Part shown: piece by piece, positions 47,367 through 60,173 of the stretch
How positions within the stretch are numbered: the stretch's first letter is position 1
How the letters are laid out: each line of letters opens with the position of its first letter
Assembly (NCBI GenBank): GCA_013414795.1
Contig: CP058732.1
Coordinates: 62,001 to 126,000 of the forward strand
Source: Candidatus Kapaibacterium sp.
GTDB taxonomy: Bacteria > Bacteroidota > Ignavibacteria > Kapaibacteriales > UBA2268
Direction: 5' to 3'
DNA: 64,000 nucleotides
Translations under genes and position numbers: made by a program
The notes under the pieces: model-generated
Database searches by the model: none
Told to the model about the DNA's origin: nothing
The model's input: the letters and a program-made list of their open reading frames with translations, nothing else

Positions 47367-47374
47367 TAATTTTG
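47367..47374 (+). promoter_or_regulatory. Candidate promoter box of the lectin operon
   Basis: TAATTTTG, 32 bp before the ATG at 47407, with TTG 18 nt upstream (47346-47348). A second TAATTTTG lies at 47390-47397 but would leave almost no leader. Confidence 0.45.
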
Positions 47375-47406
47375 TGTGTTTATTCTATTTAATTTTGGGG
47401 ATTGGT

Positions 47407-49185
47407 ATGAGGCCCCTAAAAATACTAATTACTATTTTTCTTTTGGCTTTCAACATAGATTCCCTTCTTTCCCAAGATTTGCTTGCCCATTGGAGTTTCG
47501 ACGATGGCACCGCTCGTGATGTCACTGGCAACGGCTATGATGGAATTCTTGTCAACAACCCAACCGTTGTACAAGGTGTCGTCGGAAACGCTTTGCATTT
47601 TCAAGGCAAAGGCTACTACATTCCAGCAAACGGAGATGTCAAACAAATCGGCTCGCACGTCCTTCTGCCACCAATCAATCTGCACGGCTTGAAGGAGTTC
47701 ACAATATCTATGTGGGTATACCACGAAGGCTTTTCTCACTGGGGCGGTGAAAGTTACTTGTGGATGGGACACCATCATTATGGTTGGCTTGGAATTATTA
47801 ACACTCCCGAGCCACCATATTATAAACAATATCCATACTATCTTCAGTTTTCAGTTGGTGGCTTAAATGTCAACCAAAATATGATTATGACCAAATTTGA
47901 AAATAACTTCGAACGAAATTGGGTTTGTTACGCTTTAGTTTACAAAAACGAAAATCTTTCAGTATATATCAACGGACTTAAAATTGATGAACAACACATT
48001 AAGGTTAACTATAAAACAGAACTATCTGCTTTGGCAAGGCACTGGTGGTACTACGATGGAGAGGAACGAACATCAGCCCGATTCACTGGCGCTATCGACG
48101 AAGTGAAAATTTTCCTCCGTGCTTTGTCCGATGAGGAAATCTCCCTCGAATGCCAATCTTGCGGTCCTATGTCCTTCGCTTACGATAAATTCTCTCCTAC
48201 CCCAAGCCTTCGCCTTATCAATAACGCCCGTTTGCTTGATTCTACTATTCGTCTTTCCTCCTCTTCTCCTAACCAAGTCGGTGCTCTCTGGACTTCTCAC
48301 CTTGTTCCCGTCGCAAGGGGCTTCGAAACTTCTTTTAAGTTCCGTCTCTCTGAGGGATTCAACCCAATACAGTCTGAACAACATTTCCCCGGTGCCGATG
48401 GCATCGCTTTCGTCATTCAAAACCACTCTCCTTTCGCTATTGGTAATATCGGTGGTGGTATCGGCTACGATGGTATTCCCAATTCCCTTGCTATTGAATT
48501 CGACACTTATTCTAACGACTCTTCTCAAATTGAGAATTTCGGCGACCCCAACGACAACCACATCGCTGTTCTTTGCAACGGAATAAATCCAAACTCCTCG
48601 AAACATTTCCCTCCTTATATTCGAGGCCAAACAACACAAATTCCCCCAATCAGAACAGACGGGACAATCTATTACGCCAAAATAACTTACGACAACGTCA
48701 ACCAAAGGTTAAGCATATGGTTGGACACAAGCGAAAATTTCACAACTCCCAGATTGGTCGTCGAAGGGTTAGACATATCCTCGGAATTAAATCTTGACGG
48801 AGGCGAAGGAGCATACATCGGATTTACTTCTGCAACGGGTAATGCATACGAAAATCACGACTTGCTCGCCTGGTCTTTCTGCACCAAGTCGTGGAAAATT
48901 TACTCTGATGTTGAAGAACAAAGCCAAAAGACTTCCTCTTTGCTTTTTGGCAACAGAGAAATAATTCAATCACAACAAACCAATATTAATTTCGATTTAA
49001 ATCTACCTTTGAAAGTGGAGGTATTCGACATATTAGGCAATAAGATTTTAACAAAAGAATATTCCTTTGCACAAAACTTTTTCGACGACAAACTAATTGT
49101 AACCGAGTTTCCGCAAGGATTGTGCTTTTACAAATTAACCCAAATCAATAAAACAACTTGGGTAAAAGTACTTATTTTAAAATAA
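47407..49185 (+). CDS. Secreted LamG plus L-type lectin-like protein, copy 1
   Basis: 592 residues from the ATG at 47407. After a signal peptide (to about residue 22) comes a LamG/concanavalin-like domain (about 24-240: HWSFDDGTARDVTGNGYDG ... TGAIDEVKIFLRALS) and an L-type lectin-like domain (about 250-500) with GADGIAFVIQ and LAIEFDTYSNDSS, the pattern that binds sugars in legume lectins. The end (LKVEVFDILGNKILTKEY ... GLCFYKLTQ) is a T9SS-type sorting domain. It would be exposed at the cell surface and bind glycans. First of two paralogous genes 15 bp apart, followed by a methyltransferase gene. Confidence 0.85.
   Translation: MRPLKILITIFLLAFNIDSLLSQDLLAHWSFDDGTARDVTGNGYDGILVNNPTVVQGVVGNALHFQGKGYYIPANGDVKQIGSHVLLPPINLHGLKEFTISMWVYHEGFSHWGGESYLWMGHHHYGWLGIINTPEPPYYKQYPYYLQFSVGGLNVNQNMIMTKFENNFERNWVCYALVYKNENLSVYINGLKIDEQHIKVNYKTELSALARHWWYYDGEERTSARFTGAIDEVKIFLRALSDEEISLECQSCGPMSFAYDKFSPTPSLRLINNARLLDSTIRLSSSSPNQVGALWTSHLVPVARGFETSFKFRLSEGFNPIQSEQHFPGADGIAFVIQNHSPFAIGNIGGGIGYDGIPNSLAIEFDTYSNDSSQIENFGDPNDNHIAVLCNGINPNSSKHFPPYIRGQTTQIPPIRTDGTIYYAKITYDNVNQRLSIWLDTSENFTTPRLVVEGLDISSELNLDGGEGAYIGFTSATGNAYENHDLLAWSFCTKSWKIYSDVEEQSQKTSSLLFGNREIIQSQQTNINFDLNLPLKVEVFDILGNKILTKEYSFAQNFFDDKLIVTEFPQGLCFYKLTQINKTTWVKVLILK
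47471..47675 (+). repeat. Conserved 5' block shared with the second lectin gene
   Basis: This 205-bp stretch is nearly identical to 49304-49508, without gaps and with only a handful of base differences. It encodes the first strands of the LamG domain. Outside it, the signal-peptide regions differ. Confidence 0.9.
48036..48917 (+). repeat. Conserved 3' block shared with the second lectin gene
   Basis: This 882-bp stretch aligns to 49863-50744 with no gap and few base differences, including at third codon positions. It encodes the end of the LamG domain and the whole L-type lectin-like domain. Sequence identity stops abruptly at both ends. Confidence 0.9.
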
Positions 49186-49200
49186 AAAGTGTGAATAAAA

Positions 49201-50997
49201 ATGAATGTCTTTATTATGAATTTGGTTAACGCCATTGCCAAAAAAATTGCATTAATCTCACTGCTTTCTGCTTTTTTAATCTGCAATTCCAATCTTCTTG
49301 TTGCCCAAGATTTGCTTGCCCATTGGAGTTTCGACGATGGCACCGCTCGTGATGTCACTGGCAACGGCTATGATGGAATTCTTGTCAACAACCCAACCGT
49401 TGTGCAAGGTGTTGTCGGAAACGCTTTGCATTTTCAAGGCAAAGGCTACTACATTCCAGCAAACGGAGATGTCAAACAAATTGGCTCGCACGTCCTTCTG
49501 CCACCAATTGACTTAACAAAATTATCCGAATTTAGTATAACTTTTTGGGTCTATGAGGAAGATTATTCCTCGAATTATGGTGATTATTATATATGGTTTG
49601 GACACTTCAACAGAGGATGGTTAGGGGTTGGAAACCATTATGTACAAGATTTCAACAAATTTTATTTAATCCTGCAATACACTGTAAATGGTAATGGGTT
49701 TAATAATATTTTCGAACATAGATTTGACTATTCTCTAAGGAATAAGTGGGTATGTTATGCAATGGTTTTTAAAAATGGTTATTTGTTTGCTTATGCAGAT
49801 GGGGTACTTCTCGGTAGTTTAAAAACTAACGTTGGTTACTCAATGGAACATTTTGCACTATTAAGGCACTGGTGGTACTACGATGGAGAGGAACGGACCT
49901 CTGCCCGATTCACTGGCGCTATCGACGAAGTGAAAATATTCCTCCGTGCTTTGTCCGATGAGGAAATCTCCCTAGAATGCCAATCTTGCGGTCCTATGTC
50001 CTTCGCTTACGATAAATTCTCTCCTACACCAAGCCTTCGCCTTATCAACAACGCCCGTTTGCTTGATTCTACTATTCGTCTTTCCTCCTCTTCTCCTAAC
50101 CAAGTCGGTGCTCTCTGGACTTCACACCTCGTTCCCGTCGCAAGGGGCTTCGAAACTTCTTTTAAGTTCCGCCTCTCTGATGGATTCAACCAAATGCAGT
50201 CTGAACAACATTTCCCCGGTGCCGATGGAATCGCTTTCGTCATTCAAAATCACTCTCCTTTCGCTATTGGTAATATCGGTGGTGGTATCGGCTTCGATGG
50301 TATTCCCAATTCCCTTGCTATTGAATTCGACACTTATTCTAACGACTCTTCTCAAATTGAGAACTTCGGCGACCCCAACGACAACCACATCGCTGTTCTT
50401 TGCAACGGAATAAATCCAAACTCCTCGAAACATTTCCCTCCTTATATTCGAGGCCAAACAACACAAATTCCCCCAATCAGAACAGACGGGACAATCTATT
50501 ACGTCAAAATAACTTACGACAACGTCAACCAAAGGTTAAGCATATGGTTGGACACAGTTGAAAATTACACAACTCCCAGATTGGTCGTCGAAGGGATAGA
50601 CATATCCTCGGAATTAAACCTTGACGGAGGCGAAGGAGCGTACATTGGATTTACTTCTGCAACGGGTAATGCATACGAAAATCACGACTTGCTCGCTTGG
50701 TCTTTCTGCACCAAGTCGTGGAAAATTTATTCTGATGTTGAAGATAATTTGAACAATAACAAAGAAACCATATTTGTTTCTAAGAATATTGTTGTGAACT
50801 CATCTCAATATCAGAAAGTTAAAATTGAGTTTTTTAACATTAAAGGAAGTTTAATTTTATATAAAGAAATAGATTTATTCCCTGGAAATAATGTTATTGA
50901 ATTAAGCAAATTTATGAAAGACATTAATCACGGTTTGTTTATAGTTTTAATAAAATCCAATGAAAAGGTTATTTTTGCAGATTTAATTTTACTTTGA
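49201..50997 (+). CDS. Secreted LamG plus L-type lectin-like protein, copy 2
   Basis: 598 residues with a longer signal region (to about residue 36) and the same domain order as copy 1. The start of LamG and the whole lectin-like domain are almost identical to copy 1, but the central LamG segment (nucleotides 49509-49862) and the C-terminal sorting tail (VKIEFFNIKGSLILYKEI ... NHGLFIVLIKSNEK) are strongly diverged and more AT-rich. A surface adhesin with altered specificity is the simplest reading. Same transcript as copy 1 and the methyltransferase gene 13 bp downstream. Confidence 0.85.
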   Translation: MNVFIMNLVNAIAKKIALISLLSAFLICNSNLLVAQDLLAHWSFDDGTARDVTGNGYDGILVNNPTVVQGVVGNALHFQGKGYYIPANGDVKQIGSHVLLPPIDLTKLSEFSITFWVYEEDYSSNYGDYYIWFGHFNRGWLGVGNHYVQDFNKFYLILQYTVNGNGFNNIFEHRFDYSLRNKWVCYAMVFKNGYLFAYADGVLLGSLKTNVGYSMEHFALLRHWWYYDGEERTSARFTGAIDEVKIFLRALSDEEISLECQSCGPMSFAYDKFSPTPSLRLINNARLLDSTIRLSSSSPNQVGALWTSHLVPVARGFETSFKFRLSDGFNQMQSEQHFPGADGIAFVIQNHSPFAIGNIGGGIGFDGIPNSLAIEFDTYSNDSSQIENFGDPNDNHIAVLCNGINPNSSKHFPPYIRGQTTQIPPIRTDGTIYYVKITYDNVNQRLSIWLDTVENYTTPRLVVEGIDISSELNLDGGEGAYIGFTSATGNAYENHDLLAWSFCTKSWKIYSDVEDNLNNNKETIFVSKNIVVNSSQYQKVKIEFFNIKGSLILYKEIDLFPGNNVIELSKFMKDINHGLFIVLIKSNEKVIFADLILL

Positions 50998-51880: not shown

Positions 51881-51896
51881 CGTGCTCCTTGGGGGA
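51881..51896. repeat. attL: 16-bp copy of the tRNA-Lys 3' end
   Basis: CGTGCTCCTTGGGGGA is identical to 60098-60113. The bases beyond it (GTCTCATCCCC) differ from the tRNA T-arm, so only the tRNA end is duplicated, as expected after integration by a tyrosine integrase. Confidence 0.88.
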
Positions 51897-51907
51897 GTCT
51901 CATCCCC
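51892..51907 (+). terminator. Hairpin at attL, possible terminator of the lectin-methyltransferase operon
   Basis: GGGGA (51892-51896) pairs with TCCCC (51903-51907) around GTCTCA and is followed by TTGATTTTATTAT. It lies 14 bp after the methyltransferase stop. The stem is short, so activity is uncertain. Confidence 0.4.
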
Positions 51908-52084
51908 TTGATTTTATTATACTTAACTTTACTTAAATTTACTTTTGATGAGGCTTTTAAAAATTCAAAAAGTAAAATAAAGTTTATCGAAATCCATCGA
52001 AAACAACTAAAAGTGTTAGGTATGTGTAAGTTTTGCAATGGATTGTTTTGGGTTTCAGAATGCTGATTAATTGTTGTTATAAGC

Positions 52085-52363
52085 TTATTTTCCAATCAAA
52101 ATGTTTTCGTAAATAATTTCAGCATTTTCGATTATCCACTCATAAAAATCTAATTCAAGAAAATCAGTATTATCATAATACTCATTCCATTGACTGCAAG
52201 AGATGTTATAACCGCCTTTGATTTTGTTGAAAGTCCAGTTAACCTGGATATTTTCGTTATCGTCAATATCGATGTTGATATATCCAAGCCCGCCCTCTAA
52301 ATGAGGAATTATCTCTTTTGCCTTTTCAATCAATTCAGATTTGAATTCAAAAACAGTTTTCAT
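52085..52363 (-). CDS. Unknown 92-residue acidic island protein
   Basis: No family recognised. A hydrophilic, Glu/Asp/Tyr-rich protein: an N-terminal helix (FEFKSELIEKAKEIIPHL), beta-strand-like GYINIDIDDNENIQVNWTF, then an aromatic C-terminal part (WNEYYDNTDFLELDFYEWII). No signal peptide. A strong AGGGGG ribosome-binding site precedes the ATG. It lies 12 bp downstream of the 105-residue gene on the same strand, so the left-end minus-strand genes are probably one transcript. The acidic surface would suit a DNA-mimic or inhibitor, but nothing demonstrates that. Confidence 0.7.
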   Translation of the reverse strand: MKTVFEFKSELIEKAKEIIPHLEGGLGYINIDIDDNENIQVNWTFNKIKGGYNISCSQWNEYYDNTDFLELDFYEWIIENAEIIYENILIGK

Positions 52364-52375
52364 ATTACCCCCTTT

Positions 52376-52693
52376 TTAAACATTCACATATTTACCATTT
52401 ATGGCAGTAAAAACCATTAATTTGTTACCGATTTTCATAATGCTGATTTCGATTTGACTGGATTGCTCTATTTCAAACATCGATAATTGTAAAAAGAAAC
52501 GAAAAGCAAATTCAGAGTATTTATCAAAAATCAGTTGAAAGGTTTTATCAGCATTAGTGTTAAAAACATTCACTTCTTTGATGTGCATTACTATTCCAGT
52601 TAAAACCCCTTTGAGGTTTTTCGTTTCAAAGGAATTACCCTCGAAAACCCCCTTATCTTCATTAACCCTTACCTTGTGAATTGTGTTTATCAT
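52376..52693 (-). CDS. Unknown 105-residue island protein
   Basis: No family recognised. Mostly beta strands (VFEGNSFETKNLKGVLTGIVMHIKEVNVF, SQIEISIMKIGNKLMVFTAING), without signal peptide or membrane helix. GAGG precedes the ATG at 52693. Its start overlaps the stop of the gene upstream by 4 bp (52690-52693), a sign of translational coupling. A small beta-barrel with nucleic-acid binding is possible but not shown by any motif. Confidence 0.7.
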   Translation of the reverse strand: MINTIHKVRVNEDKGVFEGNSFETKNLKGVLTGIVMHIKEVNVFNTNADKTFQLIFDKYSEFAFRFFLQLSMFEIEQSSQIEISIMKIGNKLMVFTAINGKYVNV

Positions 52694-53073
52694 TTATCCT
52701 CAAAATTTACCCCTTTAAATGGCTTATAAGCCCCTTGAAACTCAAAAAAGGTATTAGACATCACCTTTTCTGAAAAAGACGCCTTACGGGGCTTTTTGGG
52801 TTTTTTGGGTTGTTTTGGACGTTCACCGGTTACCGGTTTACAGTCAAATGGATTACCACCACAAAAACGACAGGGGCGTCGATTGAGTTCTTTCGCCTCT
52901 TCAAGGGTTACCTCATAAATATCAGTTGAGCAGTTCTTTAATCCCTTGCAATTAGGCGTGGAGTGATAAGCGTAACTCATTGGACCCTTGCAAATCCAAA
53001 CGCATTTTTGGTTTTGGCTGAATATTACCGCCGGTGTAATCAGCAAAAGAATTATCGTAAGCCTTCTAATCAC
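52690..53073 (-). CDS. Small exported protein with Cys/His metal-binding domain
   Basis: About 127 residues from a GTG at 53073; the frame is open to 53352, but the upstream part lies in AT-rich sequence and antisense to the next gene, so a short start is preferred (TTG codons slightly upstream are alternatives). A signal peptide (IRRLTIILLLITPAVIFS) precedes C-x3-C-x8-H-x4-C-x-GL-x2-C and a final P-C-x2-C. This YHxxxxCxGLxxC...EAxxxxRxPCxxC pattern is seen in small Bacteroidota proteins and after nuclease domains in other bacteria, probably binding zinc. The tail is Lys/Pro-rich. Envelope or extracellular role inferred. Confidence 0.7.
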   Translation of the reverse strand: MIRRLTIILLLITPAVIFSQNQKCVWICKGPMSYAYHSTPNCKGLKNCSTDIYEVTLEEAKELNRRPCRFCGGNPFDCKPVTGERPKQPKKPKKPRKASFSEKVMSNTFFEFQGAYKPFKGVNFEDK

Positions 53074-53156
53074 CAAAACCAAATCTTTATTAACCACAAA
53101 AACGAAAATAATAAAAAAAAATAAAATATAATACAATAAAATAAAATAAAATTTCG

Positions 53157-53164
53157 TATATTTG
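53157..53164 (+). promoter_or_regulatory. Candidate promoter box of the integrase transcript
   Basis: TATATTTG fits TAnnTTTG and lies 38 bp before the ATG at 53203, which has AGAGGGG as ribosome-binding site. It follows a run of AAAAT repeats (about 53100-53155), an easily melted stretch. No TTTG at -33 was seen. Confidence 0.45.
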
Positions 53165-53202
53165 AACGTGTAATAATAGTGTAATTCAAAAAGAGGGGTA
53201 AA

Positions 53203-53709
53203 ATGCCAAAAATCTTTTTCAACAAAACTCTTGAAGGTTATCCTGGATATTACAACACAAATATCAGTGTTGCAATTAAAGGGGCTTGGAATGTTATCGA
53301 GGCTTGTGAACCGGTTTTTGCTGACATTTACACTCATACGCTCGATAATCATATTTCAGTATATGTTGTTGAAACTGATGAAGACACCCCCGTTTACGGC
53401 GTCCTTATCCTTGACGACGGCTCTTATCCAGTGGATTTAACCGGCTCTCAAATCTTCTCTTTTTCAGTAAATCCAATCCCAAAAGCGTTTGATTTGAACC
53501 CGTCCATCAGTATTTACCGGTCTAATGCTGTTGTTGAAATCAGAAAAAACGGGCAAATCATTGGATTTTATGTCTTATCTGATGATGGTTTATCTTTTTA
53601 TGATGTTGATGATGTTATGGCTTTTGTTTTTGATGATGAAAACGCCCATCGAATTGCTGAACTCAAAGGATGGATTAATCAATTCAAAAAGGTGAGTTAT
53701 GACAATTAA
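53203..53709 (+). CDS. Unknown 168-residue island protein upstream of integrase
   Basis: No family recognised. A beta-rich first half (NISVAIKGAWNVIEACEPVFADIY, YGVLILDDGSYPVDL) and a second half with VVEIRKNGQIIGFYVLSDDGLSFYDVDDVMAFVFDDEN, ending in a basic helix. No signal peptide. It overlaps the integrase gene by 11 bp, so the two are translationally coupled; a role in controlling or assisting integration is conceivable but unproven. Confidence 0.7.
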   Translation: MPKIFFNKTLEGYPGYYNTNISVAIKGAWNVIEACEPVFADIYTHTLDNHISVYVVETDEDTPVYGVLILDDGSYPVDLTGSQIFSFSVNPIPKAFDLNPSISIYRSNAVVEIRKNGQIIGFYVLSDDGLSFYDVDDVMAFVFDDENAHRIAELKGWINQFKKVSYDN

Positions 53710-54928
53710 CTTTTATCTGAATAATGCCATCAGAAACGGCGAAAAGCCAATTTTTTGTTATATACGAGGTATAAAACCCAAAAAAACCCTGGTCCTTCAT
53801 ACTGGTGAATACATCAATCCAAAACACTGGGATTCAGCAAAACAACAAGCAAAAAGAAGTTACCCCTTTTCCACTGAATTAAATCAGTTTTTGCTGAATT
53901 TCAAAGAAAAGGTTAAAAATGCATATCGTAAGGCTTTTGTTGACTTCGAAAATCCTTCATATGAAGATATAGTTAAAACCATCAAAGAGGCTTTCGTAAA
54001 ATACTCAAAAAAAGCAAAAGGGTTCTTTGATATATATGATGAGTTTCTACAAATCCGAGTGGATTATTCAGCCTCTATGATTAAAAAATTCAAAATCATA
54101 AGAAAATATTTGAATGATTTCGACCCTGAATTGAGTTTTAACGACATTAACGCCTCTTTTTACGACCGCTTTTTGGCTTACCTCTTTTCAAAAGGTTTAA
54201 GTGATAATACAGCATATAAATACATTAAAATCTTAAAGACCTTTTTAAACTGGGCGGTTTCAAGAGGATATACTGATAATACAGCATATAAAAGTTTCAA
54301 GGCAAAAGTCCAAAAGGCTGATATCATTACCCTTTCAGAAGATGAATTGATGAGGCTTTACACCTTGAAACTCGATAATAAACGATTGGAACGTATAAGA
54401 GATGTTTTTTGTTTTGGGTGCTTCACCGGGCAAAGGTTTTCAGATATTGTCAATCTGAAAAAGAACGACATCAAGGATAACACCTGGTATTTACGAGTCG
54501 TCAAAACAAAAGAGTTAAATTTAATTCCTTTAAATGATTTTGCCCTTTCAATCCTTGAAAAATATAAAGATTTACCCGGGCTTAAAGCGTTACCATCCAT
54601 CTCAAATCAGAAAATGAACGCTTATCTGAAAGAATTATGTCAACTGGCAGGCATTGACGAAATGGTTACCCTTACCCGTTATCAAGGCTCGAAAAAGATT
54701 GAGATTTCACAACCCAAATACAATTTGGTCTCTTCTCATACAGCCCGCAGGACTTTTGTAACCCTTTCGTTACAAAAAGGTATGAGACCTGAGGTGGTAA
54801 TGCAAATCACTGGACATAAAGATTTGAAGAGTTTCAGTCGTTACATTGAGATTACAACCCGGGTTAAGGCTCAGGAAATGAGAAAAATATGGAAAATTCC
54901 ATTTGCTGAAACTGTTTTAAAGAATTAA
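53699..54928 (+). CDS. int: Tyrosine-type site-specific integrase
   Basis: 409 residues in the Bacteroidetes integrase layout: arm-binding domain (about 1-90, beginning MTINFYLNNAIRNGEKPIFCYIRG), SAM-like core-binding domain (about 105-195) and catalytic domain (about 205-400). Catalytic residues visible are Arg in CFTGQRFSDIVNL, the H-x-x-R in SSHTARRTF, His in ITGHKD and Tyr in FSRYIEIT. It recombines the element with the tRNA-Lys 3' end. Located about 1.8 kb from attL. AGGTGA ribosome-binding site. Confidence 0.95.
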   Translation: MTINFYLNNAIRNGEKPIFCYIRGIKPKKTLVLHTGEYINPKHWDSAKQQAKRSYPFSTELNQFLLNFKEKVKNAYRKAFVDFENPSYEDIVKTIKEAFVKYSKKAKGFFDIYDEFLQIRVDYSASMIKKFKIIRKYLNDFDPELSFNDINASFYDRFLAYLFSKGLSDNTAYKYIKILKTFLNWAVSRGYTDNTAYKSFKAKVQKADIITLSEDELMRLYTLKLDNKRLERIRDVFCFGCFTGQRFSDIVNLKKNDIKDNTWYLRVVKTKELNLIPLNDFALSILEKYKDLPGLKALPSISNQKMNAYLKELCQLAGIDEMVTLTRYQGSKKIEISQPKYNLVSSHTARRTFVTLSLQKGMRPEVVMQITGHKDLKSFSRYIEITTRVKAQEMRKIWKIPFAETVLKN

Positions 54929-54952
54929 GAATTTCATTATTTAAGGTTATAT

Positions 54953-55801
54953 ATGCTTAACCAGGAAAAACTGAAATCTTATATTCAAAGCACCATCGGT
55001 TTTTCAATGAGATTTTTAGACCCTCAAAAATTCGATTTTTCATTATTCGAGGTGAAAATTACACCCTCTGAACCCTTTGATATTAGATATGAGTTCGAAA
55101 TAAAAACTTACTCTATTTTTCATATTCAGGGGTGTATTTTACGATTTTATTATTCAGAACCGAAAAAAGATGAGGAAATCGAGGTTTACTCTAATAACAT
55201 TGAAATCAGTAAAGAAAAGGCGTTGGAATTCTATTTTGAGGCTTTGAAACTCTTTACAATTCCAAAATGTTTTAATGCTAACATATTGATTGAATTGCTG
55301 AAAATTAAATTTTTAGTGGATATTATTGATTGGCTTGACTTCAAACAATTTACTCAAATATTTTATTACCACGCTTGTGTTTTATTAGGATGGATAATCG
55401 ATGACAAGGCTTTCAGTGTTGATGAAAAAAGTTTTGCACTCAATGTTTGTCAGCCACTAATGACGAAATTGTTACCATATTTATACGATAACGACCCGTC
55501 TTTTGACTTTTCTTTAAGAAAACTCAAAGAAAAAGGACTTAAAAATATCACAAGAGCAGTCTATATGTTAGCAAAAAATCGTTGCAAAAACGACATCAAA
55601 GAGACTTACACCACCACCAGGAATTTTCTTAATTTATACTTACCCCTTATGGGATTTGAGAATTTCGACCCTCAAACCATCGATAATTATCTTTCAAAAA
55701 TCAACAGTGAATTAGAAGATGGTAAAATCAAAAACGAAAACACGGTTAATCAAATAAAAAGGGCGATCCGACCACATTTTTCAAAATTCATAAAGCCATA
55801 A
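54953..55801 (+). CDS. Unknown 282-residue island protein
   Basis: No family recognised. The N-terminal 110 residues are beta-rich (FEVKITPSEPFDIRYEFEIKTYSIFHIQG), the middle is helical and aromatic (FLVDIIDWLDFKQFTQIFYYHACVLLGWII), and the last 80 residues (TTTRNFLNLYLPLMGFENFDPQTIDNYLSKI ... NQIKRAIRPHFSKFIK) are basic and helical and could bind DNA. It follows the integrase gene by 24 bp with AAGG upstream of ATG. Cytoplasmic. Confidence 0.75.
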   Translation: MLNQEKLKSYIQSTIGFSMRFLDPQKFDFSLFEVKITPSEPFDIRYEFEIKTYSIFHIQGCILRFYYSEPKKDEEIEVYSNNIEISKEKALEFYFEALKLFTIPKCFNANILIELLKIKFLVDIIDWLDFKQFTQIFYYHACVLLGWIIDDKAFSVDEKSFALNVCQPLMTKLLPYLYDNDPSFDFSLRKLKEKGLKNITRAVYMLAKNRCKNDIKETYTTTRNFLNLYLPLMGFENFDPQTIDNYLSKINSELEDGKIKNENTVNQIKRAIRPHFSKFIKP

Positions 55802-55931
55802 AATTTATCCTTAAAACGTCAAATTTTGTCAAGTCCATCCTCTGAACCCCGCTTCTATTCAGCATTTTTAAAAAAACCATAAAATGTTTTGTTTATCAAT
55901 ATAATTCAAAAAAAAGTGATTGATTTTTGAA

Positions 55932-55967
55932 ATGACACTAAGTTTTAAAAATTAAAAGGTGTGTCAT
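55932..55967. promoter_or_regulatory. Inverted repeat over the start of the excisionase-like gene
   Basis: ATGACAC (55932-55938) and GTGTCAT (55961-55967) form a 7-bp inverted repeat whose right arm overlaps the ATG at 55966. This position suits autoregulation by the HTH protein. The 22-nt gap is AT-rich. Confidence 0.4.
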
Positions 55968-56175
55968 GTCAACGAATGGAATTTTGACTAGAAAAGACCT
56001 TGCGAAAGTTTTGAACATTTCGCTTGCGACACTTCACAATTGGATTCGAAGGGGTTACCTCAAACCTCATCGATTAGGTGGGCGCGTCTACTTTCTACAA
56101 GATGAAGTTTTGGAAATCATTAAAAGTAATGTTTTTGAGGGGGATAACGATGACAGGAATCCCAAAAACCGCTGA
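55966..56175 (+). CDS. Excisionase-like winged HTH protein
   Basis: 69 residues of the MerR-like/HTH_17 excisionase type: LTRKDLAKVLNISLATLHNWIRRGYLKPHRLGGRVYFLQDEVLEII, helix-turn-helix plus beta wing, DNA-binding through the NISLATLHNWIRRG helices. Such proteins bend DNA at attachment sites for excision or act as regulators. AGGTG ribosome-binding site. The next gene starts 26 bp before its stop, so the two are coupled. Confidence 0.88.
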   Translation: MSTNGILTRKDLAKVLNISLATLHNWIRRGYLKPHRLGGRVYFLQDEVLEIIKSNVFEGDNDDRNPKNR

Positions 56176-57586
56176 GGCGTTCTTGGAAAGCGTCTATTTT
56201 CCAACGACTTCGCCGTCCTTCGAACTCGATGAAGTTGGTGTAGCAAAACGGTTTGCGTATCTTCTTTCAGAAAAAGTCAAGTTCGATTTCGACAGGGGTT
56301 TTTGGTGTATATTCGATGAAATATCAAATTGTTGGAACGTTGACAAAACTAATCAGGTTATGTTATTACTCGACCACGTAATCGAAGATATCAAAAATGA
56401 TGTTGCTCTTAAGGAGAAATACACCACCAGAGAAATTAATTCTTTCATCAAGAGATGTAACTCGTATAATTACCGCGCGGCGGTTTTGAACCTTTCAAAA
56501 TCATTACCATCCATTAAAACGGTTTTAAGTGACTGGGATTCTTTTCCTGGTGCTGTTGTTTTTCGAAATGGCATTCTAAAACTTCCTCTGTCAGTTGATG
56601 GTACTTTAGATTTCAAACTAAAAACCTCGAAGGATTTAGTCTTGAATTCACTAAACGCTGATTACGACGCTAAAGCAAAATGTCCACGATGGATTGAAAC
56701 CCTAAACTCTTATTTCGATGGAAATCAAGAACTTATACGATTTGTTCAGCAACTTTTGGGCGTCACTCTGACTGGCGTCCATTTTGAAGAATCCTTCGTT
56801 TTTTTGCATGGTAACGGTGCCAATGGCAAAAGCACTTTCATAAATGTTTTGCAGCAAATTTTTGGATCTTATTCTCTCTCAGTTTCAATCGAGGAATTCT
56901 TATCCAGTTACGATAATCGACCCCGCCTGGGGCTCGCACAAGCAGTCGGCAAACGCCTGGTTGTCTCAAACGAAATACCAAGCGGTCGTTCATTAGATGA
57001 GAGTTTGATGAAGCATATAACTGGGGGTGAGCAAATAACAGTACGCCATCTATTTAAGCCACCCTTTTCCTATAAACCGACTTTTAAAATTTGGCTGATC
57101 GGAAATGAAAAGCCAATAATTCGATCGTTTAATGCAGGTATTTGGAGAAGAGTTATTCTTATCCCATTCGAAACTCAAATCCCACCCGAAAAAAGAGAAC
57201 CACAATTTCGGGTTGTTGATAATCTTTTAAAAGAGGCTTCAGGCATTGTGAATTGGATTATCGAGGGATATTTCGATTTCATTGGCAACGGTTTTCAATT
57301 CAAAACTCCCAAAATTGTCAGCCAGGCTGTCGAAAGTTACCGCTGTGAATCTGATTTTTTAAGTGATTTTTGCCAGGTTCACATAAAAAGTAAACCAGGT
57401 TCCAATGTATTTGGTAAGGACCTTTACGAAAAATTCAAAATATTTTGCTTAAACAACAACGAGCCGGTCATAAGTATCAGGAAATTTTTCAAGGCGCTTT
57501 CAGATCGAGGTTATAAAGCCACAACTGACCGGCAACGCTTCAAAATCTTTCAGGATATCGAATTACAAGAAAATGTTAGCGATTAA
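56150..57586 (+). CDS. P4/D5-type replication helicase (SF3, phage/plasmid primase family)
   Basis: 478 residues from the ATG at 56150, preceded by GAGGGGG; an upstream frame begins inside the HTH gene and is less likely. A D5_N-type region (about 25-200) precedes the SF3 helicase domain: Walker A HGNGANGKST (about 220-229), VVSNEIPSGRSLDESLMKHITGGEQITVR, sensor-type WLIGNEKPI and the arginine-containing WRRVILIPF. A short winged C-terminal domain ends it (FKALSDRGYKATTDRQRF). As in P4 alpha and SaPI Rep, the hexamer would melt and unwind the element's own origin. The archaeo-eukaryotic primase domain of P4 alpha is missing; a separate TOPRIM gene lies downstream. Confidence 0.93.
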   Translation: MTGIPKTAEAFLESVYFPTTSPSFELDEVGVAKRFAYLLSEKVKFDFDRGFWCIFDEISNCWNVDKTNQVMLLLDHVIEDIKNDVALKEKYTTREINSFIKRCNSYNYRAAVLNLSKSLPSIKTVLSDWDSFPGAVVFRNGILKLPLSVDGTLDFKLKTSKDLVLNSLNADYDAKAKCPRWIETLNSYFDGNQELIRFVQQLLGVTLTGVHFEESFVFLHGNGANGKSTFINVLQQIFGSYSLSVSIEEFLSSYDNRPRLGLAQAVGKRLVVSNEIPSGRSLDESLMKHITGGEQITVRHLFKPPFSYKPTFKIWLIGNEKPIIRSFNAGIWRRVILIPFETQIPPEKREPQFRVVDNLLKEASGIVNWIIEGYFDFIGNGFQFKTPKIVSQAVESYRCESDFLSDFCQVHIKSKPGSNVFGKDLYEKFKIFCLNNNEPVISIRKFFKALSDRGYKATTDRQRFKIFQDIELQENVSD

Positions 57587-57607
57587 TCCCAAATTTCAGC
57601 CGAAAAT

Positions 57608-57868
57608 GCCGACGAACGCCGACGAGTGCCGACGAACGAAAAAAATTCATCGGCAGGTTAACCCTCTTTGTTTCAAGGGGTTAGGAAAATATGCCGACGA
57701 AGCAGACGAAATTTCTATTATTTTATTATTTATACATATTCAAAATCCCTTAATTATATGAAAAATTCATCGGCATCATCGGCAAAACCTTGTAATCCTC
57801 TGAAAACTTTAGACTTACGATGCCGACGAACGAAAATTTTCATCGGCAAATTCATCGGCATCATCGGC
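57608..57868. repeat. GCCGAYGA iteron array, candidate replication origin
   Basis: Eleven perfect 8-bp iterons: GCCGACGA on the plus strand at 57608, 57618, 57628, 57693 and 57822, and TCATCGGC (GCCGATGA on the minus strand) at 57647, 57767, 57776, 57840, 57852 and 57861, plus a near copy GCAGACGA at 57702. Neighbouring copies are 9, 10 or 12 bp apart, close to one helical turn. All plus-strand copies have C and all minus-strand copies have T at the fifth variable base. The array starts 22 bp after the helicase stop and has no gene. Its layout resembles the Rep-binding origins of SaPI and P4. Confidence 0.85.
57710..57766. other. AT-rich core between iteron clusters
   Basis: A 57-bp segment of almost only A and T (TTCTATTATTTTATTATTTA and following) lies between the left iterons and the right iteron cluster. 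Easily melted DNA in this position is what an origin unwinding element looks like. Confidence 0.55.
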
Positions 57869-57928
57869 AAGTTTTTCGTTTTTTAAATCTTATTCCTTTT
57901 CTGAAACATAAAAAAAAACGAGGTTCAT

Positions 57929-58789
57929 ATGTCTGGGTTTCGGTATCGACTTGGAACCTATCAAGAAGTTGGAAAAACAATTTGCCCTTCTTGTGGCAAA
58001 AGGACTTTCGTTCGCTTCATAGACACCAAAACCGGGGTTATCCTGGACGGTTATGGTCGTTGCGACCGGGAAATCAAATGTGGATTTTTTAGATTTCCAA
58101 ATTCTGAAACCAAAATCATCAAAACCATTCCTTTGAAACAACCACCACCCGCCCCGCCTCGTAAAGAAGAGCCGATAACAATTGAGTATAATGCACTTCC
58201 AAATGATGATGGTAATAACCCCTTGTATTATTTTTTAACTGAATTTTTTTCTGAAATAGCCGTTGTTGATGTTTTTGACAAATATCGTATCAAATCTTTC
58301 AAAGGATATACAGCATTTCCACAAATAGACAACAAGGGGCAAATATGGACTGCGAAACTCATTAAATATAACCCTGATGGACATCGTAATAAGAGCGTAG
58401 CCCCTTTTTGGCTTCATAATATCCTGAAAAAAGGCGTTCCGAATGAGGCGTATTTCGGATTTCATCTGATTTCCAACGAAAACACGCCGATTGTGGTTGT
58501 TGAAAGCGAAAAGACTGCAATTATTTCAGCCTTGTGGTTTAATTTTGAACTTTATTTCGTTGCAACCGGCGGGCTCAACTTCAATCCTTTGAAATTCAAG
58601 CAGTTTGATAATCAAATCATTTTATTACCTGATAATGATGGCTTTGAAAGATGGGAAAAAATTTCCAAAATACACGGTTTTGGAGTTTATCCAATCAATC
58701 AGTTTTTCCATTCTGAAAAAGGGTTTGATATTGCTGATTTGATTGCCAAAAATATGGAGATATATTATGAAGCAAAAAGACACCTATAA
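57929..58789 (+). CDS. Zinc-ribbon/TOPRIM primase-like protein (DUF6371 type)
   Basis: 286 residues. N-terminal zinc ribbon: C-x2-C in ICPSCGK and a second pair in GRCDREIKCGF (about residues 17-55). The C-terminal part (about 180-286) carries TOPRIM landmarks, VVVESEKTAIISAL with the catalytic Glu and ILLPDNDG with the Asp-x-Asp type acidic pair. This arrangement is that of phage and plasmid primases that make RNA primers on single-stranded DNA. It may supply the primase that the SF3 helicase lacks. Located 61 bp after the last iteron; CGAGG precedes the ATG. Confidence 0.85.
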   Translation: MSGFRYRLGTYQEVGKTICPSCGKRTFVRFIDTKTGVILDGYGRCDREIKCGFFRFPNSETKIIKTIPLKQPPPAPPRKEEPITIEYNALPNDDGNNPLYYFLTEFFSEIAVVDVFDKYRIKSFKGYTAFPQIDNKGQIWTAKLIKYNPDGHRNKSVAPFWLHNILKKGVPNEAYFGFHLISNENTPIVVVESEKTAIISALWFNFELYFVATGGLNFNPLKFKQFDNQIILLPDNDGFERWEKISKIHGFGVYPINQFFHSEKGFDIADLIAKNMEIYYEAKRHL

Positions 58790-59078
58790 AAAAGAGGATG
58801 TTAAGGAAAATCTTATCAGGCTGATTGAAGGGGGTCGAACCATCCAGGACGCCTGTCGATTGGCTGATATATCCAGGTCGACCTTTTATCGATGGTGTAA
58901 AGAGGACCCTGGTTTCAAGGAGCGTGTTGAAATTGCTGATCGTTCCAATGTTTTTTTAGTCGAGCATTATCTGATGGAATTGATTAGACAACACAATCCG
59001 ACTGCCATCATCTTTTATCTGAAAACAAAAGGTGCTTGGCGTGGATGGAGAAATGAAAAATCAGAAAAAGAAGATTAA
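58767..59078 (+). CDS. Terminase-small-subunit-like HTH protein
   Basis: 103 residues from the ATG at 58767 (GGAGA 6 nt upstream), overlapping the primase-like gene by 23 bp. The N-terminal helix-turn-helix RTIQDACRLADISRSTFYRWCKEDPGFKERVEIAD is the homeodomain-like type found in phage small terminases and in related phage HTH proteins; the following helices (NVFLVEHYLMELIRQHNPTAIIFYLKTKG) have the family's helical pattern. If a true small terminase, it would recognise the DNA to be packaged. No large terminase is in the window, so this is an inference from sequence type. Confidence 0.72.
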   Translation: MKQKDTYKKEDVKENLIRLIEGGRTIQDACRLADISRSTFYRWCKEDPGFKERVEIADRSNVFLVEHYLMELIRQHNPTAIIFYLKTKGAWRGWRNEKSEKED

Positions 59079-59113
59079 CCCCTTTTTATGTTTCATAAAT
59101 TAAAGGTGTAAAA

Positions 59114-59368
59114 ATGCAAGAATTTTTCAGCAAAAACGAAATCCTCGAAAACTTTGAGTGCAGTGCTTACACGCTTGAAAAAATGCTTTTAATGGAATTA
59201 CTCAAACCCCGCGAGGTTTTAAATGGCATTGAGTTTTATCATCTTGACGACATCATTCAAGCATTAGAAACCTTCATCAACATCAATCAATTTGGAGTCG
59301 TCGACCCTGAAACCATTAAATCAAAGGCGTTTGAAGAGGACGCCCAATGGACGGGGTTAGAAGACTAA
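59114..59368 (+). CDS. Small HTH-like island protein
   Basis: 84 residues, no exact family. The start FFSKNEILENFECSAYTLEKMLLMELLKPREVLNGIEFYHLDDIIQAL has the layout of a small winged-helix regulator (helix-turn-helix plus a strand pair), then an acidic tail (TIKSKAFEEDAQWTGLED). AGGTG precedes the ATG. The next gene starts 22 bp before its stop. It may regulate the right-end genes. Confidence 0.65.
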   Translation: MQEFFSKNEILENFECSAYTLEKMLLMELLKPREVLNGIEFYHLDDIIQALETFININQFGVVDPETIKSKAFEEDAQWTGLED

Positions 59369-59523
59369 AACAAATTATCGAGGCGTTGGAATGTAAAGAC
59401 CTCGTAACTCAACAGATGATTGAAGACGGGCTTATCGATTTATTTGATGAAGAGGATTTTGAAGAGGTTTTGCTTGCAATCCTTGACTATTATTTCACTA
59501 TTTCCAACAATGAAGAGGAGTAA
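59347..59523 (+). CDS. Unknown 58-residue acidic protein
   Basis: ATG at 59347 to TAA at 59521-59523. The product begins MDGVRRLKQIIEALECKDL and is strongly acidic in the middle (EDGLIDLFDEEDFEEVLLAILDYYF), ending NNEEE. It overlaps the 84-residue gene by 22 bp and stops 2 bp before the next gene, in a tightly packed run, which supports it being real. No family recognised. Acidic helical proteins of this size in phages are often inhibitors or adaptors, but nothing here proves that. Confidence 0.65.
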   Translation: MDGVRRLKQIIEALECKDLVTQQMIEDGLIDLFDEEDFEEVLLAILDYYFTISNNEEE

Positions 59524-59525
59524 AA

Positions 59526-60026
59526 ATGTTAAAATCAGAGAAAATTCAAAAGAATATCGAGGTTATTCAAAGCCAAATTCAAAAGGAAATCGAGGGTTTA
59601 ATACTTCGAGAGTCTCAAATTCAGAACCAAATTGATACAGCAAAAAGAAAGGGGTTTTTAACCCCTTATGAAATAACCATTTATGCTGATTTCCAGGCAA
59701 ATCAAAAGCAACTCAAACAGCGACATATTGACTGTTTGAGGGCCCTTATCAAAAGAGAAAAATCGGAGTTACGGCGTGCAAAAGAAAAAGAGCAAAAGAG
59801 CATTAAAGAGATAAGCACCTTACTCACTGAATACAATCAGCAAATCGAAAAGATGAACGGTTTAATCAAGGAATTCACAACTCAAAGAGAAGCGTTACAA
59901 GTGATTTACGAAAAAATAATCAATATTTTAATGGATATCGACGCTGATGTCAGTGAAGTGAATGCCATTCATCAGAAAAACCAGGGTTTCAAGGTCGAAA
60001 ACCTTACGAAAATCGAAAAAGTGTAA
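59526..60026 (+). CDS. Coiled-coil island protein
   Basis: 166 residues, almost wholly helical and charged, with heptad patterning from about residue 5 to 145 (EKIQKNIEVIQSQIQKEIEGL, KREKSELRRAKEKEQKSIKEI). No family recognised. GAGGAG is the ribosome-binding site. Last gene of the element, ending 71 bp before the right attachment repeat. In phages such proteins can act as scaffolds or structural adaptors, but that is speculation here. Confidence 0.7.
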   Translation: MLKSEKIQKNIEVIQSQIQKEIEGLILRESQIQNQIDTAKRKGFLTPYEITIYADFQANQKQLKQRHIDCLRALIKREKSELRRAKEKEQKSIKEISTLLTEYNQQIEKMNGLIKEFTTQREALQVIYEKIINILMDIDADVSEVNAIHQKNQGFKVENLTKIEKV

Positions 60027-60033
60027 GTAAAGT
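60025..60033 (+). repeat. Candidate integrase arm site near the right end
   Basis: AAGTAAAGT, also present in inverted orientation near the left end (51926-51934), where ACTTWA/ACTTTT units repeat at 10-bp steps (51921, 51931, 51941). Arm-type binding sites for the integrase would be expected at such places. Short motif, so weak evidence. Confidence 0.35.
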
Positions 60034-60097
60034 GTAATTTTTTGAAAATATATTTTTTCCTAAGCCAATGATTTTGAGAAGTTTACAGAAAAACGAG

Positions 60098-60113
60098 CGT
60101 GCTCCTTGGGGGA
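60098..60113. repeat. attR: tRNA-Lys 3' end repeat
   Basis: CGTGCTCCTTGGGGGA, the second copy of the 16-bp direct repeat, containing the discriminator, 3' acceptor strand and the start of the T-arm of the tRNA-Lys gene. The tRNA gene is therefore intact on the right side of the element. Confidence 0.88.
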
Positions 60114-60173
60114 CTCGAACCCCCGACCCGCTGATTAAGAGTCAGCTGCTCTGGCCAACTGAGCTAAAGGAGC
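60100..60173 (-). tRNA. tRNA-Lys (anticodon CTT)
   Basis: 74 nt including the discriminator A, read on the minus strand. All stems pair: acceptor GCTCCTT/AAGGAGC, D stem GCTC/GAGC, anticodon stem GCTGA/TCAGC with loop CTCTTAA (anticodon CTT), T stem GGGGG/CCCCC with loop TTCGAGT. CCA is not encoded. It is the insertion target of the mobile element. Confidence 0.97.

Follow-up and report, generated by a model that had tools for sequence, protein, structure and literature searches.

Introduction

The replication origins of PICIs lie 3' of rep and consist of two sets of iterons around an AT-rich region (PMC6092414). This plan has been termed unique to PICIs, and the maintenance of plasmids carrying pri-ori from an E. 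coli PICI has been tested (PMC6092414). SaPI Rep and SCCmec Cch2 use their C-terminal domains to bind iterons located 3' of their own genes (PMC7581432). In P4, 8-bp type 1 repeats are annotated on both strands, within ori and also within crr, which adjoins the alpha gene. The annotated origin of Streptococcus thermophilus phage Sfi21 is noncoding, 302 bp long, and immediately follows a putative primase gene. How self-loading helicases place two rings on duplex DNA is an open question. Here we describe an iteron array in a satellite-like element of Candidatus Kapaibacterium sp. that, judging from its sequence, is very likely the site where replication of the element begins and which is recognised by the SF3 helicase that the element encodes.

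A satellite-like element is integrated at a tRNA-Lys gene

The window, the whole 64-kb stretch of DNA that was analysed, contains an integrated satellite-like element of about 8.2 kb (51881..60113) with a 16-bp direct repeat, CGTGCTCCTTGGGGGA, at both ends. The two att repeats match exactly, the left at 51881..51896 and the right at 60098..60113, where it lies over the 3' end of a tRNA-Lys gene (60099-60173, minus strand). In a genome of the same genus (G002) we found the matching empty site, in which the tRNA-Lys gene adjoins genes for a methyltransferase and a LamG-type protein and the element is absent. The repeats at tRNA-Lys and the empty site together indicate site-specific integration with direct repeats, as expected of a PICI. 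At 47374-50997, the window also holds two adjacent genes that by eye encode long, highly similar LamG-like proteins, and a related protein adjoins the empty site in G002.

The element encodes, all on the plus strand, a tyrosine integrase (53699..54928; PF00589, PF13102 and Arm-DNA-bind_5), an HTH_17 excisionase- or regulator-like protein (55966..56175; PF12728, E value 2e-13, and TIGR01764, E value 5e-6, just under the cut-off), an SF3 helicase (56150..57586), a zinc-ribbon and DUF6371 protein (57929..58789; PF21957 and PF19898), and a small HTH protein similar to the small subunits of terminases (58767..59078; PHROG 4102, E value 9e-11). With the candidate origin included, the gene order reads int, xis-like, helicase, ori, terS-like; the xis and terS calls rest on HTH matches, and the small HTH protein is also matched by generic HTH and transposase models. 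No Rpr/AlpA protein was identified as such in the element, nor was a helper phage for it, and the P4 core genes psu, sid and delta were absent from the Pfam and PHROG matches of the open reading frames scanned. Relatives of the DUF6371 protein share invariant Cys pairs and a VESEKTA...PD motif of the TOPRIM type, and we consider this protein to be probably a primase of that type. A DUF6371 gene also occurs in another genome of the phylum, where an array of CAAAGTGC lies between it and a helicase-like gene (L199:5711-5826; L010:1372-1483); by eye, that helicase-like gene looks unrelated and is DUF3987-like.

The helicase is related to SaPI5 Rep

The SF3 helicase, for which the start codon is inferred, contains D5_N and DUF5906 domains, matches the NCBIfam primase_Cterm model of the P4 family, and has no N-terminal primase domain. 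A phmmer search identified SaPI5 Rep (7ola, E value 1e-14) as the closest solved relative by sequence. We obtained an AlphaFold2 model with a pLDDT of 93.5, and a Foldseek search with this predicted fold returned large viral SF3 helicases as the best matches and SaPI5 Rep (7ola) with an E value of 5e-18. A single-sequence query found no relatives in viral or genome contigs, although profile queries did. Residues 421-471 of the modelled 477 (57413..57565, plus strand) are predicted from secondary structure to form a helix-helix-hairpin, a winged-helix-like region. A C-terminal winged-helix domain on the helicase, a feature of PICI/P4-type origins, is thus supported by structure prediction and by the SaPI5 Rep match. 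By analogy with Cch2 (PMC7581432), this region is presumed to be the iteron reader.

Twelve iterons form a near-exact dyad around an AT-rich core

A gap of 342 bp (57587-57928) separates the helicase stop codon from the next gene. It had been predicted to hold eleven exact copies of GCCGAYGA, five forward and six reverse, and we recovered all of them: GCCGACGA on the plus strand at 57608, 57618, 57628, 57693 and 57822, and GCCGATGA on the minus strand at 57647, 57767, 57776, 57840, 57852 and 57861. The first iteron lies 22 bp 3' of the stop codon, in agreement with the claim that the array follows directly after the SF3 helicase gene. A twelfth copy with one change, GCAGACGA (57702-57709, plus strand), completes the array. 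In 1000 dinucleotide shuffles of the gap, 8-mers with one free position reached a maximum of 6 copies and a mean of 3.5, compared with the 11 observed; the clustering of GCCGAYGA is far above chance, with the copies not all independent because TGCCGACGAACGAAAA..TTCATCGGCA is present twice in the array, as is AAATTCATCGGCATCATCGGCAA.

The original prediction had also placed a 57-bp AT-rich segment inside the array and described the iterons as lying in both orientations. The AT-rich core is present at 57710..57766 (57 bp, 88% A+T) and is presumed to be the melting site. The copies do lie on both strands, but that description understated their layout, which is an ordered, near-exact dyad of 12 copies with the orientations +++-++ to the left of the core and --+--- to its right. 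The left half-origin (57608..57709, plus strand) consists of iterons at 57608+, 57618+, 57628+, 57647-, 57693+ and 57702+, the last being GCAGACGA, with spacings of 10, 10, 19, 46 and 9. The right half-origin (57767..57868, minus strand) consists of iterons at 57767-, 57776-, 57822+, 57840-, 57852- and 57861-, with spacings of 9, 46, 18, 12 and 9. Each half is composed of six sites over 102 bp, the innermost iteron starts are 65 apart, and all six mirror pairs share a dyad centre at 57738.0 to within 1 bp. When we placed the same number of copies in the same orientations at random, the mean number of dyad-paired copies was 5.6, and none of 2000 layouts reached the 12 observed. By eye, the linkers beside the inverted copies show no mutual resemblance after reverse-complementing one of them, suggesting that the equal spacing did not arise merely because an entire half was recently duplicated in inverted orientation.

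This layout also bears on whether the repeats could be coding. Three open frames, of 62, 72 and 90 aa, do cross the array; however, they overlap in different registers, none of the three has a Pfam match, and the best PHROG matches (E values of 0.02 and 0.2) are to families of unknown function. The single-sequence search of viral and genome contigs gave no close relative for a comparison of these frames. The symmetric arrangement on two strands is also unexpected for a coding repeat, and we regard this explanation as extremely unlikely relative to an origin.

The plan recurs 3' of related helicases

We collected a first set of 160 loci with related helicases from profile queries and searched them for a plan defined as two direct 8-mers 8-12 bp apart, a core of 35-95 bp, and two inverted 8-mers, with at most 2 mismatches overall. 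The plan was found 3' of the helicase stop codon in 49 of 156 loci, which represent 24 of 85 helicase clusters at 70% identity, and was absent at that threshold from the other 107. Controls from the same loci gave 0/142 at 600 bp further on, 0/123 at 1.4 kb further on, 0/160 inside the gene and 3/138 upstream, and shuffled sequences gave 0/156. The median core in plan-bearing loci was 63 bp, and the first iteron lay a median of 8 bp 3' of the stop codon. In an independent set of 62 helicases, which share less than 75% identity with one another and with those of the first set, the plan was present in 18/62 loci versus 0/59 and 0/62 in the controls. Detection went through several settings in succession (exact 8-mer clusters, 9-mers with one mismatch, the paired plan, and a strict and then a relaxed half-site), and controls were run for every setting except exact 8-mer clusters. 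The array in the window exceeds the limit of the survey: with its degenerate inner iteron and the one-base difference between its strands, it needs 3 mismatches to fit the plan, and at that setting it is the sole match in the 64 kb.

The survey points to the origin plan as a trait of this family of helicases; it is present in phages, Sfi21 among them, and at helicase genes of several phyla. We therefore dispute the claim that the plan is unique to PICIs (PMC6092414), because Sfi21 and the surveyed loci show it. Dyad symmetry did not prove general in the family, with most of the other arrays no more symmetric than random layouts and L321, L122, L065 and L149 the exceptions.

Co-variation of the iteron sequence with the helicase C-terminus had been proposed as a check on the origin reading. 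Among 28 non-redundant arrays, the two similarities rise together (rho 0.25, Mantel p-value = 0.005), and the correlation of iteron similarity with helicase core identity is lower, at 0.16. The correlation with the C-terminus is weak and partly reflects shared ancestry. Of these arrays, the one with the motif closest to that of the window is L003, from the same genome (TGCCGAAAAA compared with TGCCGAYGAA).

The locus compared with described origins

The array has the features of a PICI/P4-type origin, being located 3' of an SF3 (D5_N/Primase_Cterm) gene with iteron sets flanking an AT-rich region. The PICI and SaPI origins (PMC6092414; Ubeda 2007 as cited in PMC7581432) likewise lie directly 3' of the Rep helicase gene and carry their iterons in two sets on either side of an AT-rich region, a likeness of plan by published description. 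They belong to elements with int, xis-like and terS-like genes, for the last two of which the element has candidates by HTH matches. The locus differs in belonging to a genome of the Bacteroidota, in the absence of a primase domain from its Rep, and in the probable TOPRIM-type gene that comes after the array. As in P4 ori and crr, the iterons are 8 bp long, occur in both orientations and are about one turn apart, whereas the P4 iteron is GGTGAACA-like. By inspection, the Sfi21 origin has the same order, with a direct pair first and, beyond an AT-rich stretch, an inverted pair (AGTTACTTAGTTACTA / TAACTAAGTAACT), but its iterons are 8 bp apart and of another sequence. The putative SCCmec Cch2 origin shares with the window a Primase_Cterm helicase with repeats 3' of its own gene, bound in Cch2 through the C-terminal domain, but only three short direct repeats (AAGTG) and no dyad are reported there (PMC7581432).

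We considered whether the iterons could instead be operators through which the HTH_17 protein or the helicase itself controls the downstream primase gene, with replication starting elsewhere. An HTH protein is indeed encoded nearby, the array sits between two genes of the same direction, and iteron-bound initiators can repress too. Nevertheless, a scan for one promoter type found no promoter-like site in the gap, and the two in the 2.4-kb region scanned were fewer than in shuffles. Moreover, similar arrays lie 3' of related helicases at many unrelated loci, the arrays of P4 and Sfi21 carry origin annotations, and an AT core flanked on both sides by six sites within 102 bp would be unusual for operators. 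An operator function in place of an origin is thus unlikely. The position 3' of the SF3 helicase gene, the plan shared with annotated origins and the enrichment over same-locus controls all support the candidate origin of the original prediction, and the published binding of iterons by SaPI Rep and SCCmec Cch2 (PMC7581432) is consistent with it. We conclude that this new element very probably carries, in the array, a true origin that belongs to a known kind.

A six-iteron half-site is shared with P4 ori

The order +++-++ with spacings like those of the left half was found at 13/157 helicase representatives versus 0/149 and 0/159 in controls, when up to five mismatches in six copies were allowed. 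A stricter setting gave 4/157, with 0 and 0 in the controls. These rates are descriptive, as the spacing ranges were chosen after viewing arrays, some of which also belong to the set tested. P4 ori matches the half-site without mismatch (spacings of 10, 11, 22, 43 and 10), but has a single half-site, located about 2 kb beyond the alpha start. L003 and L007 fit with two mismatches. The half-site was not found, as searched, in P4 crr, which consists of two 120-bp repeats, or in the Sfi21 origin, and no other surveyed locus had the full 6+6 layout with both halves at the threshold used; thus, one hexamer per six iterons is not established as general. We found no description of the exact 6+6 dyad and the shared half-site spacing in the open-licence papers searched, although the kind of origin is itself known from PICIs and P4.

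We propose a model in which the C-terminal winged helix of the helicase would bind each 8-10-bp iteron. Six iterons in a fixed geometry, with three in line, one inverted and two in line, would seat one hexamer, and the mirror-image half would seat a second hexamer facing the first across the AT-rich core. The core would then melt and two forks would depart in opposite directions, with priming probably performed by the separate zinc-ribbon/DUF6371 protein encoded just downstream. We give the assignment of one hexamer to each half an even chance. A broader hypothesis is that SF3 helicase origins have in common a half-site of three iterons in line, one inverted 15-22 bp on and two in line 38-105 bp further, that each half-site templates one hexamer, and that complete origins, including that of the window, are two half-sites in mirror image, so that double-hexamer loading would be encoded in the DNA spacing. 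We put this hypothesis forward tentatively, as a possibility we rate below even. A natural, near-exact 6+6 mirror origin with a half-site like that of P4 ori offers a DNA template for testing subunit number and register.

A strand-linked base difference and folding of the array

The original prediction reported that forward copies carry C and reverse copies T at one position, and suggested that this may keep the arms from forming perfect hairpins. The split is complete, at 6 versus 6 with the degenerate copy included (Fisher p-value = 0.002, uncorrected). Among the surveyed arrays, L198 has a full within-motif split (eight plus copies with C, three minus copies with T or G, p-value = 0.006) and L065 a partial one (p-value = 0.03), these values being without correction for the roughly 14 columns compared in every one of a dozen arrays. 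Beyond these two, no array with at least three copies per strand had a within-motif split, and we rejected a strand-linked base as a family rule.

The suggested effect on hairpins stands for the window, where the plus (coding) strand forms the weaker hairpins: the left hairpin region has a z of -0.02 on the plus strand and -3.67 on the minus strand. It did not recur in the independent set of arrays. A directional test in the first set leaned, without significance, toward weaker folding of the coding strand (18 versus 10 arrays, p-value = 0.18), and larger arrays looked more skewed, whereas the independent set did not support it (9 versus 14, p-value = 0.40). We rejected the idea that the split serves to keep the coding-strand transcript unfolded. 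A simpler account is that the C/T difference was probably inherited by duplication of one inverted unit, which is favoured by the presence of that unit twice in the array.

Folding is also the evidence for an array that acts as RNA, with hairpins in the transcript terminating or regulating downstream gene expression. Compared with shuffles, both strands of the whole gap fold better (z of -4.5 for plus and -7.1 for minus), but inverted repeats fold by construction, and the strand co-transcribed with the genes is the weaker folder, its left hairpin region being no different from shuffles by the z given above. The gap has no Rfam match and no terminator-like site, and exact spacing without matching linkers suits protein binding better. 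We consider a function as RNA very unlikely and favour the replication origin.

Other features of the surveyed loci

The genome of the window contains a second SF3 helicase, which has its own array of TGCCGAAAA 3' of the stop codon, around a TA-repeat-rich stretch (L003:7217-7561). Outside the window and near this second helicase are Type IV CRISPR-Cas-like genes (L003:10106-14085), with csf1, csf2 and csf3 matches below the curated cut-offs and a CysH-like gene alongside. At four loci (L093, L170, L186 and L189), the word GGTTTGCA, common to all four, occurs in clusters of five at a distance of 1.4-2.5 kb beyond the helicase. In L056, L057, L062, L093, L108, L197 and L198, the core between the iterons is not AT-rich and instead has 18-26 bp of alternating purine-pyrimidine sequence, mostly CG/CA steps. 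Across the plan-bearing loci, 30/49 cores, many of them near-identical, had alternating purine-pyrimidine sequence at p-value < 0.05.
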